The position numbers and the translations under genes were made by a program. Positions 1,702 to 9,252 of a DNA stretch of 64,000 nucleotides are shown here, one piece after another. The stretch comes from Magnetospirillum sp. Lineage in GTDB: Bacteria; Pseudomonadota; Alphaproteobacteria; CACIAM-22H2. Each line of letters opens with the position of its first letter. The stretch's first letter is position 1. The stretch spans positions 521,565 to 585,564 of the forward strand of contig JAPZUA010000001.1 of assembly GCA_027532905.1 (NCBI GenBank), read 5' to 3'. The notes below the pieces were generated by a model. It was not told the origin of the DNA. It searched no databases and saw only the letters and a list, made by a program, of their open reading frames with translations.

Positions 1702-1783
1702 CGGGCAACCTTTTTGGTTTTTGGCTATGCGTCTGGCGCAAGCCTAGCAGGCATGCCTCAGCGTTGGGAAGCAGGTGCCGGTC

Positions 1784-2761
1784 TTATCCCCAGCCAAATT
1801 TTTGTTGCAGCAGCCGGGCGGCCCGCGCCGTGTCGTCGGGCGGGGCATAGGTCCAATGCTCGAACCGGCCCTCGAATGGGCGCGTGAAGCCCTTTGCCTG
1901 CAGACCCGCCTGGAAGGCGGCAATGCGGCCCGAGCGGCCCTCGAGGGCTGCCACAAACACCGGCTTGCCGGTCGATAGGGCCTCGCTCGTCATCGACACA
2001 GAATCTTCGGTCACAACGATGCCGTCGGCCACCGCGAGCAGCCCCAAATAAGGGTTATCGCCCTCGCCGTCCCAGGCATAGCCGCCCAGATCGCGCACGG
2101 TTTTGACGAGCTTTTCGCGGGCAGGCGGGTCGGTCCGGCGCGACGGCGTAAGGGCAAGGCCGCAGCCCGACGCTGCCAAAGCTTTGAGCCCGGAAGCGAG
2201 CCTTTCGACGGCGGCCTCCGTCATCTGGAAGCGGCGCCAACCATTCGAGCCGCCCAAGATCACGGCGATCAACGGCCTTTTGAGCCCTGCCAATTTCGGT
2301 GCCCAAAGCTCAGCCGCGGCGGCGAGTTTTGCCGGCGTCACGTGGTGGAGGGCGACTTGCGTTTCGATGACGTTGGCGCCGACCACTTCGTCGTGCGCCG
2401 GGGCGACTACCGCATCGAGCCAGGCAACCGGCACGGCCGGGCGCTGCACATGCAGGGCAAACACTTTGCCACCACTGCGGCGCTTCATGGCAACGCCGAT
2501 CGGCGCACAGCGCGAGCCCAGTGTAATCGCCACGTCCGGCCACGGGGCCGACAGATTTGGGCTTTCGGCCGTCAGCATCGCCAGCGGATCGCCGTGCACC
2601 AACGCGACCTCCGGCAGCCACGAATATGGCGGGCGGAACGCCACGTCCTTGAATTCGAAGGCAAGGCCTAACGCTTCCGCAATGCCGCGGCATTGGGCCT
2701 TCATGCCGACCTGCCCCGGGCTGATGATCCAGGCAGTTTTGGGGGCGGTGGGGGTTGTCAT
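1784..2761 (-). CDS. ELM1-family protein (DUF1022, mitochondrial-fission ELM1-like)
   Basis: A 325-residue protein matching the bacterial ELM1/DUF1022 family, common in alphaproteobacteria and sometimes annotated as a nucleoside-diphosphate-sugar epimerase-like protein. Visible family-like segments are the N-terminal SPGQVGMKAQC, the central VILGGSNGW and the C-terminal VTEDSVSMTSEAL. The last resembles the donor-binding end of GT-B glycosyltransferases. The biochemical role is not established and I infer none. It reads in the same direction as trxB and diverges from the Lrp-type gene across a 119-bp intergenic region. Confidence 0.85.
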   Translation of the reverse strand: MTTPTAPKTAWIISPGQVGMKAQCRGIAEALGLAFEFKDVAFRPPYSWLPEVALVHGDPLAMLTAESPNLSAPWPDVAITLGSRCAPIGVAMKRRSGGKVFALHVQRPAVPVAWLDAVVAPAHDEVVGANVIETQVALHHVTPAKLAAAAELWAPKLAGLKRPLIAVILGGSNGWRRFQMTEAAVERLASGLKALAASGCGLALTPSRRTDPPAREKLVKTVRDLGGYAWDGEGDNPYLGLLAVADGIVVTEDSVSMTSEALSTGKPVFVAALEGRSGRIAAFQAGLQAKGFTRPFEGRFEHWTYAPPDDTARAARLLQQKFGWG

Positions 2762-2880
2762 TGCGGGCGGGACTATGGCCGCGCCGTGCCGCTTTGCGCA
2801 ATTTTTTTAGCCTTGCAGCTTGCGTCGGCCTGCATATTGCTAATATTATTTCAACATCATCGGAATTCAGGACCTTAAAA
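2762..2880. promoter_or_regulatory. Divergent intergenic region upstream of ELM1-like and Lrp-type genes
   Basis: This 119-bp region separates two divergent genes. Its right half (about 2835-2880) is strikingly AT-rich for this genome, with TATTGCTAATATTATTTC, and ends in AGGACC, a plausible ribosome site before the regulator ATG at 2881. Lrp/AsnC proteins usually regulate their own promoters through such AT-rich sites. No exact -35/-10 pair could be chosen with confidence. Confidence 0.4.
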
Positions 2881-3384
2881 ATGCGCGGGCACAAGCTTGA
2901 CGACGTCGATCGCCAGATTCTCCACGATCTCCAGAATGACGGGCGGATGACCAATGTCGAGCTTGCGCGCCGGGCGGGGGTTTCGGCCCCGCCCTGTTTG
3001 CGCCGCGTTCGCGTGCTCGAAGAGGCCAAAGTCATCCGCGGCTTCCATGCCGACATCGACCCGCATGCGCTGGGTTTCGGGGTGACGGTGTTCGCGTTCG
3101 TCAGCCTCAAGAGCCAAGCCGACGCGGATTTGCGCGCCTTTCAAGCGATCATCGATTCGTGGCCCATGGTCCGCGAATGCCACATGCTGACGGGGGAAAC
3201 CGATTTCCTCATCAAGGTCGTGGCGCAGGATTGGGACGCGTACGAAAAATTCCTCACGACGCAGCTCACGGCCGCCCCCAACGTCAGCAACGTCAAATCG
3301 GCGCTGACGATCCGCACGACCAAAAACCAGCCCGGCGTGCCGATCGAGACCAAACAGTCCGACGCCAAAGCGGCGCGCAGCTAG
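2881..3384 (+). CDS. Lrp/AsnC-family transcriptional regulator
   Basis: A 167-aa feast/famine regulator. Residues 8-65 form the AsnC helix-turn-helix (DDVDRQILHDLQNDGR, then VELARRAGVS and CLRRVRVLE). A RAM ligand-binding domain follows, with the typical segment ECHMLTGETDFLIKV around residues 99-113. The reading frame is open further upstream, but the ATG at 2881 fits the family start and has an AGGACC site. These proteins form octamers or higher assemblies and respond to amino acids; the ligand here is unknown. It converges on the PAS_5 gene with only 3 nt between stops. Confidence 0.93.
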   Translation: MRGHKLDDVDRQILHDLQNDGRMTNVELARRAGVSAPPCLRRVRVLEEAKVIRGFHADIDPHALGFGVTVFAFVSLKSQADADLRAFQAIIDSWPMVRECHMLTGETDFLIKVVAQDWDAYEKFLTTQLTAAPNVSNVKSALTIRTTKNQPGVPIETKQSDAKAARS

Positions 3385-3387
3385 GCT

Positions 3388-3915
3388 TCAGCCGCGCGGC
3401 GTGAGCACGCGCAAATCGCTTGAGACGTGGCGAATGCCCTCGCGTGCGAGCAGAAAGTGCCGTTCGCCCCGCAGGCGATAGCCGACCACGGCAAACAGCG
3501 AAAACGAGCCGTTGTTGTCGAGCGGATAGATGAGCCGTTCGTAGGCGACGCTTTTGCCGTCGCCCAATTCGAAGCGGACATTCTCGTAGACAACGGCACC
3601 GCCCGCCGCGCGCGCGTAACCCGCCAGCAGCTGCTCGGCGACGGCACCGGGCAAGACGTCGCGCAGTTTCTGGCCGGTCAAGTCGCGGCCGTAGATGTCG
3701 GTCATGCCGGTCCCGAACAGCCGCACGCGCAGATCCCCGCTTTCCGCGTCGCGCTCGATGATTTTCATCTGGGCTGCCCAGCGCGCCACCGCTTCGAGCG
3801 GCAGGTCGCTGCGCGCAAGGCGGCGCCCCAGCGTCTCGGCGCGCCCTTCGGCCCAGGCGAAAAACGCGGCGATGTTGGGCGACGCTTCTTTAAACGAGAT
3901 CGGGTCGCCGGTCAT
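3388..3915 (-). CDS. PAS_5-domain protein
   Basis: A 175-aa soluble protein made almost entirely of one PAS_5-type domain, a family abundant in Rhodospirillales and usually of unknown role. Diagnostic stretches are RVRLFGTGMTDIYGRDLTG in the middle and VYENVRFELGDGKSV later. There is no output domain, so it may bind a small molecule or modulate a partner. Its stop is 3 nt from that of the Lrp-type gene (convergent). A perfect TATAAT hexamer lies on its strand upstream. Confidence 0.8.
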   Translation of the reverse strand: MTGDPISFKEASPNIAAFFAWAEGRAETLGRRLARSDLPLEAVARWAAQMKIIERDAESGDLRVRLFGTGMTDIYGRDLTGQKLRDVLPGAVAEQLLAGYARAAGGAVVYENVRFELGDGKSVAYERLIYPLDNNGSFSLFAVVGYRLRGERHFLLAREGIRHVSSDLRVLTPRG

Positions 3916-4032
3916 TTCAGCAGAACCGCATTTGCTGCGACGCGTGCAAGCATAAGTCTAAGCCTTGATGGACAAAAACTGGAAACTGCCTTGCGAGAAT
4001 GGCGAAGGGTCGGCGCGCGAATCAATGGATAA

Positions 4033-4038
4033 ATTATA
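4033..4038 (-). promoter_or_regulatory. Possible -10 element for the PAS_5 gene
   Basis: The minus strand reads TATAAT here, inside the 155-bp gap between the cyclase and PAS_5 genes and about 120 nt before the PAS_5 start. Only a poor -35 match lies at the right distance, so this is tentative. The rest of the gap (3916-4070) holds no recognisable gene. Confidence 0.3.
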
Positions 4039-4070
4039 CGGACCACCCGGCCTGCACATCGAGATACCAC

Positions 4071-5738
4071 CTACGCGAGCTTAGTCGCGTCCTTGACGAT
4101 GCGCACGGCGAGCACGCCCTGGCGACCGCGAATGTCGGTCGTGTCTTCGGGGAAGGCGGAAAAATCGAGGCCGCTGGCGCTTGCGGCATCGCTCGAGACC
4201 AGCAGGTCGGCGGCGTATTTTTTGGTAAGCGCTTCGAGGCGGCTCGCCGTATTGACCGTGTCGCCGATGGCGGTGAATTGGCGCGCCTGGCTGTAGCCCA
4301 TCTCGCCGACGATGGCTTGGCCCGTATGGATGCCGATGCCAATGCGCAAGGGCGCGTCGAGATCGTGCGCAAGGGCGGCATTGAGAGCGGCGAGGCGCTC
4401 GATCATGGCGCGGGCACCCGCAAGCGCTTCGCGCGTGCCTTGCTCGGGCCCGCTTTCGACGCCGAACAAAGCAACAATGCCGTCGCCGACGAACTTGTCG
4501 ATGCGCCCGCCCGAAGCTTCGATCGCTGCGCCCATTTCGGCGAAATAGCGATTGAGGAGGAACACGACGTCGAACGGCAATTTGCTTTCCGACAAGGTCG
4601 TGAAGCCGCGCAGATCGGCGAACATCACGGCGATGGTTTTTTCGGCCCCTGCACTTTCGCGCTCGCGGCGCTGGACGAGGGCCGCCGCGCCGATCGAGGC
4701 CGGCAGCAGCGGCACGATCGCGACGTCGCCGATGGCGTGCGCTTGGCAGGCCAGGCGCACGCCGGGCGGGGCCGCGACGCGCGCCAGCACGGCCAATTCG
4801 TCGGCCGCCGCCGGCGACAGATTTTCGGCCCCGCGCTCGACCCGCACGCGGCAGGTCGAGCAGCGCCCGCGCCCGCCGCACACGGACGCATGCGCAATAC
4901 GGCCCTGGCGACTTGCCTCGAGCAGCGTGGTGCCAAGGGCGACTGCGACCGTCGCGTCGCCCGGATATGCCACGATCGCGCGCCCGCCGCGATGGGCATG
5001 CCATGCGCGCACGCGGCGTGCCGCGAACACGGCGGCGATCGCCAGCGCCCAGAATGCCAACACGCCGGTCTGGATGCGGTCGAGCGTTGCCGCGCCGGCC
5101 GCATCCGGGAAGCGATGGCGCCCGGCAAAGCCGGCACGCCATTCAGGATCGGCAAACAAAGCGGCCGCCTCGCGGCTGCCGGCGAGATAACCCGCCAACG
5201 CGAGAACGCCGAGAGCAACGGCCGCCGCCAGCAGAACCGGCTGCCAGCGCGCGTAAAACGGTTTCAAGCGCAGCCAGTAATGTACGCCCGCACAGCCATG
5301 CAGCCAAACCAACAGCATGCCTGCGAGCAGCAGAAGCCCGCCGGTCATGTCGAACTGCGTCGTTGCGACGGTGACACTCGTATGCGCCGGCAACGTGCCG
5401 AACAGCAGTACGCCGAAACGCACCGGCACCACGTGGCCCGTGAGCATCGGCACCACCAACATACCCGCGACGAGTTGCACGATTTCGCCGCGCGACAGCG
5501 TGGCCAAATCGCGCCGCCGGTAGACGGCCCACAGCGCAAGCGCGAAATGCGCGGCAAGCGAACAATAAAGAAGCACCCGCACCGGCGGCAGTGCGACGAC
5601 CGCGAACATCGCGGACGCATAGGCCTCGGCGGCCGCGAGCGACACGTTCATCAGCACGTGGTTCGTCAAATGGAATGCCACATAGACGAACAGCACGAGG
5701 CCGGAAGCCAGCCGCACGCGGTGCGAGGAAATCTTCAC
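4071..5738 (-). CDS. Membrane adenylate cyclase with cytochrome-b-like anchor and [2Fe-2S] ferredoxin domain
   Basis: A 555-aa three-module protein. Residues 1-245 hold about six membrane segments of succinate-dehydrogenase-anchor character, with membrane-region histidines H23, H27, H64, H102, H147 and H153 that could ligate heme. Residues 250-345 are an adrenodoxin-type ferredoxin with C287, C293, C296 and C331. Residues 365-555 are a class III cyclase with metal aspartates D375 and D419, adenine-selecting K415, and N496/R500. The second base-selecting position is T489, in FTAIGDTVN, as in class IIIb (soluble-AC-like) enzymes. The catalytic set looks complete. Similar SdhC-type anchored cyclases (CyaC) are known in rhizobia. 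It is the last gene of the ftsE operon, and its ATG overlaps the preceding stop (ATGA). Confidence 0.9.
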   Translation of the reverse strand: MKISSHRVRLASGLVLFVYVAFHLTNHVLMNVSLAAAEAYASAMFAVVALPPVRVLLYCSLAAHFALALWAVYRRRDLATLSRGEIVQLVAGMLVVPMLTGHVVPVRFGVLLFGTLPAHTSVTVATTQFDMTGGLLLLAGMLLVWLHGCAGVHYWLRLKPFYARWQPVLLAAAVALGVLALAGYLAGSREAAALFADPEWRAGFAGRHRFPDAAGAATLDRIQTGVLAFWALAIAAVFAARRVRAWHAHRGGRAIVAYPGDATVAVALGTTLLEASRQGRIAHASVCGGRGRCSTCRVRVERGAENLSPAAADELAVLARVAAPPGVRLACQAHAIGDVAIVPLLPASIGAAALVQRRERESAGAEKTIAVMFADLRGFTTLSESKLPFDVVFLLNRYFAEMGAAIEASGGRIDKFVGDGIVALFGVESGPEQGTREALAGARAMIERLAALNAALAHDLDAPLRIGIGIHTGQAIVGEMGYSQARQFTAIGDTVNTASRLEALTKKYAADLLVSSDAASASGLDFSAFPEDTTDIRGRQGVLAVRIVKDATKLA

Positions 5739-6475
5739 TTCGCGTCGTCGGCCAAAGCGTGCCCCTCTTCAAGGCGCCGCGTCGCCGTTTCGATGCGCGT
5801 TTCGAGCTCGTGCATGAATTCGGCGCGCTTGAGACCGGCCGGAATCGCGTCGAGCACTTCGACCGTGATGAGGCCGGGCTTTTTGGCGAAGGTGCGCCTA
5901 CCCCAGAACAGGCCCGAGTTTAGGGCGACCGGCACGCACGGCAGATCGAGCTTGTTGTAAAGCGCCATGACGCCGGGATGGTAGGGCCAGTCCTTGGCGT
6001 CGCTGCGCACCGGCGTGCGCGTCCCTTGCGGAAAAATCACGATCTGGCGGCCCTCGGCGATCGCTTCCTGCGCCATCGCCAGCATGCGTTTCAAAGCCGC
6101 CCCGCCGCCTTTGCGGTCGACCGGGATCATTTTCTGCTTTTGCGCATGCCATCCGTAGAGCGGGATCGACAGCAGCTCTTTTTTCATCACATAGGTGGGA
6201 TCGCTGCACAGCGCGTAGAAAATCAGCGTGTCCCACGCCGATTGGTGCTTGCACGCGACCAGTGCCGGGCCTTCGAGCAGATCGACGCGACCGACCAGGC
6301 GGTGTTCGAGCCTGCAGATATGTTTCAGACCCCACACGATGGTCTTGGTCCAGATGCGCGCGATGAAATGCACGCCGCGCCTGTCCATGAAATGGCACGG
6401 CAGCGAAGCGATCAGCAGCAGCGCCGTGGCGCCGAAAAACCAAATGTTGAACAGAAACGAGCGCACCTGAATCAT
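5735..6475 (-). CDS. PlsC-type lysophospholipid acyltransferase
   Basis: A 246-aa membrane acyltransferase of the 1-acyl-glycerol-3-phosphate family, expected to acylate a lysophospholipid at the cytoplasmic membrane. The catalytic HX4D motif is H77-Q-S-A-W-D82, and the acceptor-binding motif FPQGTR is at residues 148-153. An N-terminal membrane helix spans about 7-25. The start at 6475 is preferred over longer frames because its ATG overlaps the upstream YdcF stop as ATGA. Its own stop overlaps the cyclase start in the same way, indicating translational coupling. Confidence 0.93.
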   Translation of the reverse strand: MIQVRSFLFNIWFFGATALLLIASLPCHFMDRRGVHFIARIWTKTIVWGLKHICRLEHRLVGRVDLLEGPALVACKHQSAWDTLIFYALCSDPTYVMKKELLSIPLYGWHAQKQKMIPVDRKGGGAALKRMLAMAQEAIAEGRQIVIFPQGTRTPVRSDAKDWPYHPGVMALYNKLDLPCVPVALNSGLFWGRRTFAKKPGLITVEVLDAIPAGLKRAEFMHELETRIETATRRLEEGHALADDAK

Positions 6476-7068
6476 AGATTGGCATCCGCAAAAGCAAGAT
6501 AGGGGCGCAGGAGCGCGCCGAGATATTTGTGGTACTCGGCCTGCAGCAGCGCATAAGTGCCGGGCCAACGCCACCATTCGTCGATGTGGAAATTCTCGGG
6601 ATAGACGGGCTGGGCGACGAGATCAATGTCCGGCATCGCGCGGCGGAATTCGAGCGTTGCGCGCCGCAGGTGGTAGTTGGCCGTGACGAGTCGCAGCGAG
6701 GCGATCTTCTCGCGCGCGACGAACGCAGCGGCTTCGCGCGCATTGCCTTGGGTCGAGTCCGCGTCGTAGCCGAGTTCGACGCAGCATTCGAGCGCCCCCG
6801 GCCCTTGCCGCGCCACGCGCAGCAGCTCCTGCAGCTCAACATTACGGTTCACGCCCGAGACCAGCAGCTTCTTGGCCTTGCCCTCAGCCATCAGCCGCAA
6901 CCCTTCGCGCAAGCGCAGCTGGCCGCCGGTCAGCACCACGATCGCGTCGGTCGCGCGCGCGTCGACCGGACCCTCGCGCGGGATCGTCGCGGCAAACCAC
7001 ACGAGCCCACCTAGATAGAGTAAGCCGAGCACCGCCGCCGCCGCACCCAAACGCAGGAGTGCCGCCAT
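6472..7068 (-). CDS. YdcF/DUF218-family membrane-anchored protein
   Basis: A 198-aa protein of the DUF218 (YdcF/SanA/ElyC-like) family. One N-terminal membrane helix (about 7-27) precedes the conserved domain. Family landmarks are DAIVVLTGGQLRLREGL, KKLLVSGV, the STQGNA turn and VTANYHLRRA. Homologues such as SanA and ElyC affect envelope integrity, but the reaction is unknown. It lies between the HAD phosphatase (6 nt gap) and the acyltransferase (4-nt overlap) in the ftsE operon, consistent with an envelope role. Confidence 0.9.
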   Translation of the reverse strand: MAALLRLGAAAAVLGLLYLGGLVWFAATIPREGPVDARATDAIVVLTGGQLRLREGLRLMAEGKAKKLLVSGVNRNVELQELLRVARQGPGALECCVELGYDADSTQGNAREAAAFVAREKIASLRLVTANYHLRRATLEFRRAMPDIDLVAQPVYPENFHIDEWWRWPGTYALLQAEYHKYLGALLRPYLAFADANL

Positions 7069-7074
7069 GTCGCG

Positions 7075-7617
7075 TCAGCCCAACAGCGCGGCAACTGCCG
7101 CGCCGAGATCTTCGTGGACGGCAACGGGAAGCACGACATCGGGCAGGCCTGCCGCCAAGGTCTTGGCACCGTGGCCGGTGCGCACGAGGTGGCGCGGGCA
7201 GTCGATCGCAGCAGCCGCCTGCAGATCGCGCAGACTGTCGCCGACGAAGGGCGTCGCAGGCGCATCGGCCGCGAACATCGCAAGCGCTTCGATCAGCATC
7301 CCGGGGGAGGGCTTGCGGCGCGTCGAATGCGGGCCGGGGGCGTCGGGGCAATGGAAGATCGCATCGAGTTTCGCACCCTCGCGCGCAAGCCCCTCGCGCA
7401 AGGCCTCGTGGATGCGCGCAAGCATTGCTTCGTCGAAAATACCGCGCCCGATCGGCGACTGGTTCGTGCACACGGCCACGGCATAGCCCGCCCGATTGAG
7501 GCGCGCCACGGCCGCAGCAGCGCCGGGCAGCAGCACAAGTTCGCCCGGGTGCTTCACATAGTCGGCACGATCGACGTTCAAAACGCCGTCGCGGTCGAGG
7601 AGGACGAGTCGGGCCAT
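7075..7617 (-). CDS. HAD-superfamily phosphatase, GmhB/HisB-N-like
   Basis: A 180-aa HAD IIIA phosphatase. The nucleophile motif DRDGVLN has D8 and D10, motif II is CTNQS (T51), motif III is RRKP with K102, and motif IV is VGDSLRD (D127, D131). The closest characterised family is D-glycero-D-manno-heptose bisphosphate phosphatase. The family's zinc-binding loop normally has four Cys/His ligands; here only C90 remains before RRKP. Substrate assignment to heptose bisphosphate is therefore uncertain. It follows ftsX by 12 nt in the same unit. Confidence 0.85.
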   Translation of the reverse strand: MARLVLLDRDGVLNVDRADYVKHPGELVLLPGAAAAVARLNRAGYAVAVCTNQSPIGRGIFDEAMLARIHEALREGLAREGAKLDAIFHCPDAPGPHSTRRKPSPGMLIEALAMFAADAPATPFVGDSLRDLQAAAAIDCPRHLVRTGHGAKTLAAGLPDVVLPVAVHEDLGAAVAALLG

Positions 7618-7629
7618 GGTTTTTCGAAT

Positions 7630-8499
7630 CTACAGGATACGCGCCAGATTGCGCATCACCGTGCCGTAGGCGGCCGCGGCGGCAACCAAGGTGGCGGCGA
7701 ACGGCACGCTTGCCAGCAGCAGCCAATCGCTCCAGCCCAACGCGGGCAACGGAAAAGCGAGGGTCGCACTGCTGCTGGCGACGGCCGAGGCTGCGACCAG
7801 CACGAGTGCTGCCCCTGCGGCCCCGAGCCCGGCCCCTGCAAAAGCGAGCCGCATCGCCGCACGCGCAAACTGCACGGCGATGTAGCCGTCGGGAGCGCCG
7901 ACAAGATGCAGGAGATCGACCGCCTCGCGATGCATGGCAAGGCCCGCGCGCGTGGCAAAGGCCACGCAGCTCGCCGCCGCCAATCCGACGGCCGCCAGCA
8001 CGATCCCCGCCACAAGTCCCGCCGCGCGTGCGAGGGCGAGAAATCCGCCAAGCCAGCGCCCGTGGTCGTCGATCGCGGCATCGGGAACGGCTGCTTCGAG
8101 ACGCTGACCAAGTGCCGCAAGATTGGGAGCGGCGCCTGCGACAAGCCGCACATCGATCAGCACGGGGATCGGCAGGTCTTGGAGGTTGCCGGCACCGAGC
8201 CACGGGCTCAGCAGCGCTTCGGCAGCCGCGCGCGAAATCTGCGTCGCCGCCGCGACCGATGGGTCGGCGCGCAAAAGCGCCAACACCGGGTCCGGGTCGG
8301 CGCCGGCCGGCAGTTCGACCGTCAGCGTGCCCGCGAAATTCGCCTGCCAGCGTTTGGCCGTCCCCGACAGGGCCAATGCAAGCCCGAGTGCGAGTGTTGC
8401 AAGGAACGCAAGCGCCGCGACGACGGCCGCGATCCAGCGCCGCTCGCGGTCGCGTTCCAACGCAAGCTCGCTGCCGCGCCCGAAGCCGAAGCTCGCCAT
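7630..8499 (-). CDS. ftsX: FtsX, permease-like subunit of the FtsEX cell-division complex
   Basis: A 289-aa protein with the FtsX layout: a short cytosolic N-terminus, one membrane helix (about 24-47), an extracytoplasmic domain (to about 170) and three more membrane helices. FtsEX couples ATP hydrolysis to activation of cell-wall hydrolases at the septum. The sequence is strongly diverged and alanine-rich, as in other alphaproteobacteria. The ATG at 8499 lies 5 nt after the ftsE stop, which supports both the start and the identity. The frame is open far upstream, but that part is antisense-like shadow of ftsE. Confidence 0.9.
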   Translation of the reverse strand: MASFGFGRGSELALERDRERRWIAAVVAALAFLATLALGLALALSGTAKRWQANFAGTLTVELPAGADPDPVLALLRADPSVAAATQISRAAAEALLSPWLGAGNLQDLPIPVLIDVRLVAGAAPNLAALGQRLEAAVPDAAIDDHGRWLGGFLALARAAGLVAGIVLAAVGLAAASCVAFATRAGLAMHREAVDLLHLVGAPDGYIAVQFARAAMRLAFAGAGLGAAGAALVLVAASAVASSSATLAFPLPALGWSDWLLLASVPFAATLVAAAAAYGTVMRNLARIL

Positions 8500-8504
8500 C
8501 GCCC

Positions 8505-9173
8505 TTACGCCGCCTTCGCGATTTGCACGAGCGCACCGTCTTCCAAGCGCAGCTCGGGATGGCGCGATTCGCGCACCAATTGCATATTGTGCGTCGCGAC
8601 GACGATCGTGGTGCCGAGGCGATTGAGCTCCTCGAACAGCCGCATCAAACGAAGTGCGATGCGATCGTCGACGTTGCCGGTGGGTTCGTCCGCGATCAGC
8701 AGTTTGGGCCGGCCGATAACCGCGCGCGCGATGGCAACACGCTGCTTCTGCCCGCCCGACAGGGTCGGCGGCAACGCGTCGAGATGGTCGCCCAGACCGA
8801 CCCAGACCAACAATTCGGCCGCGTGTTCGCGCAGCTGCCCTTCGTCCGCACCCTGCACGCGCAGCGGCAGGGCCACATTGTCGATGACCGACAGATGGTC
8901 GAGCAGTCGGAAATCCTGGAACACGGTGCCGATGCGGCGGCGCAAGCCCGGCAGATCGCGCCGCGCCATGCGCGCCACGTCGCGCCCGAACATATGCACA
9001 GTGCCGCGGCTTGGCAGGCGCGCCAAATAAAGCAGCGACAGCAGCGACGATTTGCCGGCACCCGAAGCACCGGTCAGAAAATGGAAACTGCCTGGCTGCA
9101 GCGCGAAGGTGACGTCGCGCAGCACTTCCGGCCCCAGGCCGTAGCGCAAGCCCACTTGTTGGAAGACGATCAT
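8505..9173 (-). CDS. ftsE: FtsE, ATPase of the cell-division FtsEX complex
   Basis: ABC ATPase that partners FtsX at the division site. With the ATG at 9173 the protein is 222 aa, the same length as E. coli FtsE; a GTG at 9194 would add seven residues. Walker A is GASGAGKSS (35-43), the signature LSGGQ (138-142), and Walker B LLIADEPTGNVD (about 158-169). It is the first gene of a six-gene minus-strand unit (ftsE-ftsX-HAD-YdcF-PlsC-cyclase) and diverges from the zinc-ribbon gene across 79 bp. Confidence 0.96.
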   Translation of the reverse strand: MIVFQQVGLRYGLGPEVLRDVTFALQPGSFHFLTGASGAGKSSLLSLLYLARLPSRGTVHMFGRDVARMARRDLPGLRRRIGTVFQDFRLLDHLSVIDNVALPLRVQGADEGQLREHAAELLVWVGLGDHLDALPPTLSGGQKQRVAIARAVIGRPKLLIADEPTGNVDDRIALRLMRLFEELNRLGTTIVVATHNMQLVRESRHPELRLEDGALVQIAKAA

Positions 9174-9252
9174 TGGCAGAGCGGATGCTGGCACGCGCGG
9201 GCAAGACGGCGCAAGCTTGCCCCCGTGCCGTCTAAGGCCCTATAAAAGCCTT

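Follow-up and report, generated by a model that had tools for sequence, protein, structure and literature searches.

The question raised by this 64,000-nucleotide stretch of Magnetospirillum sp. DNA (hereafter, the window) is what a single protein that joins a membrane anchor of the succinate dehydrogenase type, a ferredoxin and a nucleotide cyclase does at the end of a run of genes headed by ftsE, and whether such a combination is new. A complete, GTG-initiated open reading frame of 555 codons coincides exactly with positions 4071-5738, where the sequence-only reading had placed the cyclase, and lies on the minus strand, which that reading had left unstated. The domain matches fall on the minus strand, and for this reason a 653-aa plus-strand frame spanning the gene (3999-5960) was not retained. 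Pfam Guanylate_cyc matched residues 367-541 (E 3.4e-19) and Pfam Fer2 residues 262-334 (E 3.8e-9), both exceeding the gathering score, and the ferredoxin cysteines (287, 293, 296 and 331) are spaced C-x5-C-x2-C-x34-C. These matches, with the anchor fold described below, bore out the earlier proposal of an SdhC-like anchor, a [2Fe-2S] ferredoxin and a class III cyclase in one protein, and the residues then named (D375, K415, D419, T489, N496, R500 and C287) were all found where their numbers put them. The model of the whole protein had a mean pLDDT of 92.8, the only segment of three or more residues below 50 being residues 356-359, in the linker between ferredoxin and catalytic domain.

Table 1. 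The cyclase gene, its parts and its neighbours in the window (all on the minus strand).
Feature	Positions	Strand	Remarks
CyaC-type adenylate cyclase CDS	4071..5738	(-)	555 aa, GTG start
SdhC/FrdC-like anchor, residues 1-250	4989..5738	(-)	six long helices
Putative heme-ligand codons H23/H64/H102/H147	starts 5672, 5549, 5435, 5300	(-)	
[2Fe-2S] ferredoxin domain, residues 253-343	4710..4982	(-)	C287, C293, C296, C331
Linker, residues 344-362	4653..4709	(-)	between ferredoxin and catalytic domains
Class III cyclase catalytic domain, residues 363-548	4095..4652	(-)	D375, K415, D419, T489, N496, R500
PAS_5-domain protein	3388-3915	(-)	155 bp downstream of cyclase, same strand
plsC-like acyltransferase	5735..6475	(-)	upstream of cyclase; likely true start 6475
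DUF218 protein	6472..7068	(-)	Pfam
gmhB-like heptose bisphosphate phosphatase	7075..7617	(-)	NF006506, 180.2 bits vs cut-off 178
Probable ftsX, start approximate	7630..8550	(-)	Pfam FtsX E 0.0023, below cut-off
ftsE	8505..9194	(-)	TIGR02673, 273.7 bits vs cut-off 264.85

Since sequence similarity to SdhC is weak, the assignment of the anchor leans on fold and on ligand spacing. TIGR02046 reached E 0.044 against the whole cyclase and E 0.0086 against the anchor alone; among 66 family anchors it matched 29 at E up to 1 (best 3.1e-5) and Pfam Sdh_cyt matched three (best E 0.0077), and a PDB profile search with the anchor returned only 6lum_C, at E 0.72. Modelled alone, the anchor had a pLDDT of 96.6 and six helices of at least 24 residues (5-31, 51-74, 83-113, 131-156, 162-195 and 213-250). 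Fumarate reductase anchor chains occupied the top four ranks in Foldseek, at E 0.3-0.5, and the best six entries in VIA-align were without exception anchors of fumarate reductase or succinate dehydrogenase, with Z from 11.6 to 14.1 (W. succinogenes 13.4-14.1, D. gigas fumarate reductase 13.6, Chloroflexus succinate dehydrogenase 11.6), the next row being cytochrome b561 at Z 6.6. Because a VIA-align Z below about 13 can reflect an arrangement common among helical models, the argument is carried by the margin over that next row and by the ligand pattern. The SdhC-like character of the anchor is thus barely visible by sequence and clear in the predicted structure. The closest fold, Wolinella succinogenes FrdC (2bs3_C and 1qlb_C, Z 13.4-14.1 over 195-200 residues), shares 15-16% identity with the anchor and, unlike the window protein, is an enzyme subunit without fusion to a ferredoxin or a cyclase. 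No gene for a flavoprotein or iron-sulfur subunit lies beside the cyclase, the Pfam-scanned neighbours being plsC, DUF218, gmhB, ftsX, ftsE and PAS_5, and the Sdh_cyt matches of the genome sit on contigs other than that of the cyclase. The anchor fold is all that the cyclase and succinate dehydrogenase or fumarate reductase have in common.

We then followed the candidate cofactor ligands through the family, in a census of 160 matching loci that contracted to 144 different proteins, of which 136 were full-length members, the window protein included. Six paralogous cyclases of the same genome (L002-L007), duplicates and eight partial or split rows (L034, L036, L058, L060, L062, L087, L088 and L166) were left out of it, and smaller sets of 85 rows (A1) and 66 rows (A2) served for structure prediction and anchor scans. 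Family identities to the window protein reached down to about 33-35%, and the most common residue at an anchor position had a mean frequency of 0.52; against this background H23, H64, H102 and H147 were present in 136 of 136 members, as were C287, C293, C296 and C331. The sequence-only reading had pointed to six membrane-region histidines. The anchor is indeed histidine-rich (positions 6, 23, 27, 64, 102, 119, 147 and 153), but only the four above are invariant ligand candidates: H153 was found in 85 members and H119 in 17, and H27 (133 members) was, with Q88, near-invariant. In the anchor model the four histidines are placed one per helix on the first four long helices. One histidine per helix in the first four helices is what is expected for two b hemes, as in complex II. 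Outside the class Alphaproteobacteria, nine full-length anchored matches were listed, and the seven examined all keep the four cysteines and, H27 included, the five histidines; two of these seven carry Q in place of K415.

The catalytic domain proved, at some of its residues, more variable than the ligands. Its model superposed on Spirulina platensis CyaC (1wc1_C) with Z 26.7 and rmsd 1.5 over 186 residues; full-length fold searches mainly reflect this domain, and the S. platensis protein is a cyanobacterial enzyme whose name coincides only by chance with that of the rhizobial CyaC. Across the 136 members D375, D419 and R500 were universal, N496 was kept in 132, T489 in 129 and K415 in 119, and 116 members were standard at all 15 key residues. 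Three of the 20 exceptions (L106, L118 and L162) deviate solely at H27, and in every one of the remaining 17 K415 is replaced while heme and cluster ligands are intact. On a quick tree these 17 rows formed five groups, one of nine members with low support (0.211). The replacement is Q in 12 rows, a change that, judged from sequence, may alter specificity rather than abolish activity; in the other five (L159, 4998-6656; L161, 4995-6632; L163, 4968-6641; L164; and L165, 1195-2964) it is A, S or G and comes with a second change, at T489 or N496, all cofactor ligands being kept. With K415 replaced in 17 of 136 members, a redox role does not have to go together with cAMP synthesis throughout the family; the window protein keeps K415. 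One genome (G051) holds two of the double-changed copies, L159 and L165, which might form a heterodimer or sense redox state without making cAMP. Two other genomes (G160 and G240) have two matches each.

An architecture of this kind has been described before. Cluster 1 of an eLife 2016 paper (PMC4821796) groups 30 class IIIb cyclases from alpha- and beta-proteobacteria, in which an SdhC-like six-helix membrane region with four histidines, predicted to bind two hemes, is followed by a ferredoxin and a catalytic domain. The window protein has the same domain order as its members (e.g., Rhodopseudomonas palustris Q132R4) and shows the six-helix SdhC/FrdC-like anchor, the four spaced histidines, the ferredoxin with four cysteines and the class IIIb residues; compared by description, it does not differ in any feature given there. 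The characterised relative is Sinorhizobium meliloti CyaC (SMc01818), presented in PMC10463352 as a six-helix membrane cyclase with two hemes B that are oxidised or reduced by ubiquinone, with effect on cyclase activity, which goes up on oxidation by quinones; the legend of Fig. 6 of that article also names a [2Fe-2S] cluster. It is therefore like the window cyclase in being a class III enzyme with a hexahelical di-heme-B anchor and a [2Fe-2S] cluster, and its K410, T484, N491 and R495 correspond, as residue numbers, to K415, T489, N496 and R500 of the window protein at a constant offset of 5 (PMC10463352). The genes differ in setting: S. meliloti cyaC adjoins the TetR-type cycR and a LysR-type gene (PMC10463352), whereas the window cyclase ends a run of ftsE, ftsX, gmhB, DUF218 and plsC. 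Acinetobacter CavA, considered as a further ferredoxin-cyclase, was dropped, the main text of PMC11410210 giving membrane regions and PF00211 and containing none of the terms 2Fe-2S, iron-sulfur and redox.

Relatives are also common. Among the 387 alphaproteobacterial genomes sampled, 123 had a match at E 1e-50 or better; with a family profile, 46 of 299 genomes across the phylum reached E 1e-60 or better, a count that includes anchor-less and partial matches. The cyclase matched 588 plasmid records, and in 131 of these the alignment spanned 80% or more of the query. The 15 key residues were complete in the three named rhizobial plasmid copies that were examined; for the plasmid cyclases of R. 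lentis (WP_207245740.1) and R. leguminosarum (WP_105009263.1) the alignment takes in 98% of the query, with 40-42% identity and 15 of 15 key residues identical, and their genes, unlike that of the window, are followed by an FkbM methyltransferase gene and have no plsC neighbour annotated. This spread (123 of 387 genomes) and the descriptions in PMC4821796 and PMC10463352 lend no support to the earlier view of an unusual three-part combination with more to it than rhizobial CyaC. That the window cyclase belongs to the already described CyaC-type redox cyclases, in an operon setting encountered within the genus only, is well supported.

On these grounds we read the protein as a CyaC-type adenylate cyclase of class IIIb, homodimeric and anchored in the membrane, whose activity would be set by the redox state of the quinone pool through the heme anchor and the ferredoxin, and we give this reading a probability of roughly 85%. 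The anchor would hold two b hemes through H23, H64, H102 and H147 and exchange electrons with respiratory quinone; the cytosolic [2Fe-2S] ferredoxin, lying between anchor and catalytic domain, would relay the redox state, and the catalytic domain would make more or less cAMP, more when quinones are oxidised if it behaves as S. meliloti CyaC does. Cofactor binding, quinone contact, the dimer, the direction of the response and the cAMP product are here taken over from the family by analogy. The suggestion that the protein reports quinone or redox state was already part of the sequence-only reading and appears the best one, given the invariant ligands, the match of the modelled anchor to complex II anchors and the precedent of CyaC. 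The cAMP would work through CRP-like receptors. The window's genome (G000) has 16 cNMP-binding-domain matches, and 6 of the 15 whose loci were examined carry a GE..R(S/T)A cassette, which we take to be a cAMP-receptor-type motif, so that such receptors are plausible.

Some relatives lack one of the three parts or are interrupted. Ferredoxin-cyclases without an aligned anchor were collected at 12 loci (L200-L211, of 14 such matches), most of them about 300 aa long; the four cysteines aligned in 11 of the 12, the twelfth being probably trimmed by the chosen start. D and A replace the adenine-specifying K and T in 6 of the 12, so their nucleotide preference may differ. The converse case, from a complete genome (L199, 3944-5068, minus strand), is a 374-aa anchor-ferredoxin protein without a cyclase domain, whose gene overlaps by 4 bp that of a 735-aa MscS-family mechanosensitive channel (1740-3947, minus strand); here, possibly, a channel has been coupled to the redox sensor known from the cyclases. 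A match was present in 11 of 100 sampled genomes of its family, and the ten besides this one occupy open frames of 560-590 aa, with room for a cyclase domain, which, judged by frame length, makes it a single case among 11. Three loci (L087, L088 and L089) that might have passed for two-gene cyclases were rejected as such, no new start being evident at the joints; their interruptions, two of which fall close to the linker between ferredoxin and catalytic domain, look like frameshifts and are probably assembly errors or signs of decaying genes.

The truncated and altered relatives are also what speaks for a different emphasis, in which anchor and ferredoxin would serve mainly to carry electrons between quinone and a partner in the cytosol, or to give regulators a place to dock, with cAMP synthesis being secondary. 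Five of the 136 members combine loss of K415 (to A, S or G) with a change at T489 or N496 while keeping every ligand, the 9-kb locus of the cyclase-less anchor-ferredoxin protein contains no cyclase match elsewhere, and CyaC is reported to form a complex with CycR and Clr (PMC10463352). The window protein, in contrast, has the full catalytic set, and 116 members carry standard residues at all 15 key positions, so that we regard an electron-transfer or docking role as unlikely to be the main one here. At the opposite extreme, the anchor could be a plain, cofactor-free membrane tether of a constitutive cyclase; the complete invariance of four histidines and four cysteines in 136 members, at identities down to about 33-35%, makes this hardly credible.

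The sequence-only reading had also raised a response to CO2. A cyclase whose threonine sets a bicarbonate response, with the redox domains merely tuning it, seems to us very improbable. T489 is present and kept in 129 of 136 members, but it is the family default and the class IIIb threonine is also an adenine-recognition residue, and for both reasons it carries little specific information. The best fold match of the catalytic domain, S. platensis CyaC, was crystallised with bicarbonate, and PMC3383692 presents the threonine as a presumed predictor of regulation by bicarbonate among sAC-like cyclases; the sAC of non-mammalian sperm is nevertheless described as being under the control of pH and not of bicarbonate (2026 PNAS, PMC12867704). 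The redox-controlled CyaC-type cyclase remains our preferred reading.

We finally considered whether the genes around the cyclase say anything about its role. The cyclase start overlaps the plsC stop by 4 bp (GTGA), the plsC start overlaps the DUF218 stop (ATGA), and gaps of 6 and 12 bases precede DUF218 and gmhB. Between 3300 and 9400 of the window no promoter-like site was found, and terminator-like sites numbered 8 against 6.5 expected, a result that carries no information either way. The ftsEX operon of the sequence-only reading stood as a tightly packed run from ftsE to the cyclase, with the qualification that FtsX is weak by Pfam, its probable identity resting mainly on the position after ftsE, and that the arrangement was seen only within the genus. 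There, plsC and DUF218 adjoin the cyclase in 11 of 11 genomes (G000-G010), and ftsE and ftsX were seen in the window and in the six same-genus loci with 8-kb flanks (L008-L013; G002-G004 and G006-G008), the flanks of G001, G005, G009 and G010 being just 1.5 kb; the PAS_5 protein follows the cyclase in L008-L010 and had no match in L011-L013. Searches for plsC, DUF218, gmhB and ftsX at E 1e-5 gave no match in 23 other named loci (L014-L036, four of them with less than 1 kb upstream) and none in the loci of 14 other-genus genomes (flanks up to 1.5 kb), and weak FtsE matches at these loci were, where examined, a different, divergently transcribed transporter of the ABC-2 type. A functional link to ftsEX across the family thus gained no support.

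Other neighbours recur elsewhere in the family, as named from one representative each. No single conserved partner gene emerged from 108 loci longer than 6 kb (104 of which extend 1 kb or more upstream; some contigs counted twice). At 28 of the 108, some of them duplicates, a divergent ABC-2 ATPase gene lies within 600 bp of the cyclase (L014-L018, L020, L023-L029, L031, L032, L035, L091, L095, L098, L100, L101, L103, L120, L125, L126, L135, L144 and L145), and single representatives show a Gld-like cluster with ABC_tran, ABC2_membrane and ABC_transp_aux. A disjoint set of 18 has, on the cyclase strand and no more than 400 bp upstream, a pfkB-family kinase gene (L094, L099, L108, L110, L112, L116, L117, L123, L127, L130-L132, L134, L136, L139, L142, L143 and L150); by its sequence this kinase looks to be of the adenosine-kinase type, and a link of cAMP turnover to adenosine salvage is possible. 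With the ftsEX arrangement seen in one genus and other neighbours elsewhere, the general mechanism does not include the division operon. Within the genus, a respiratory redox sensor could still be wired into a division and envelope operon, quinone-state cAMP helping to set division or envelope synthesis to the respiratory state: the 4-bp overlap with plsC at the end of the run would deliver the cAMP signal in fixed proportion to FtsEX and the envelope enzymes. We consider this unlikely.

As these data indicate, the three-part cyclase is no isolated case. It represents an enzyme type widespread in proteobacteria, probably one that converts redox state into cAMP, and in this CyaC-type family the cofactor ligands vary less than do some of the catalytic residues. 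The census provides a ligand map for mutating CyaC-type enzymes (H23, H64, H102 and H147; C287, C293, C296 and C331; and, in addition, H27 and Q88), and the part-deletions found in nature, ferredoxin-cyclases without an anchor and an anchor-ferredoxin protein without a cyclase, could reveal the role of the ferredoxin itself.
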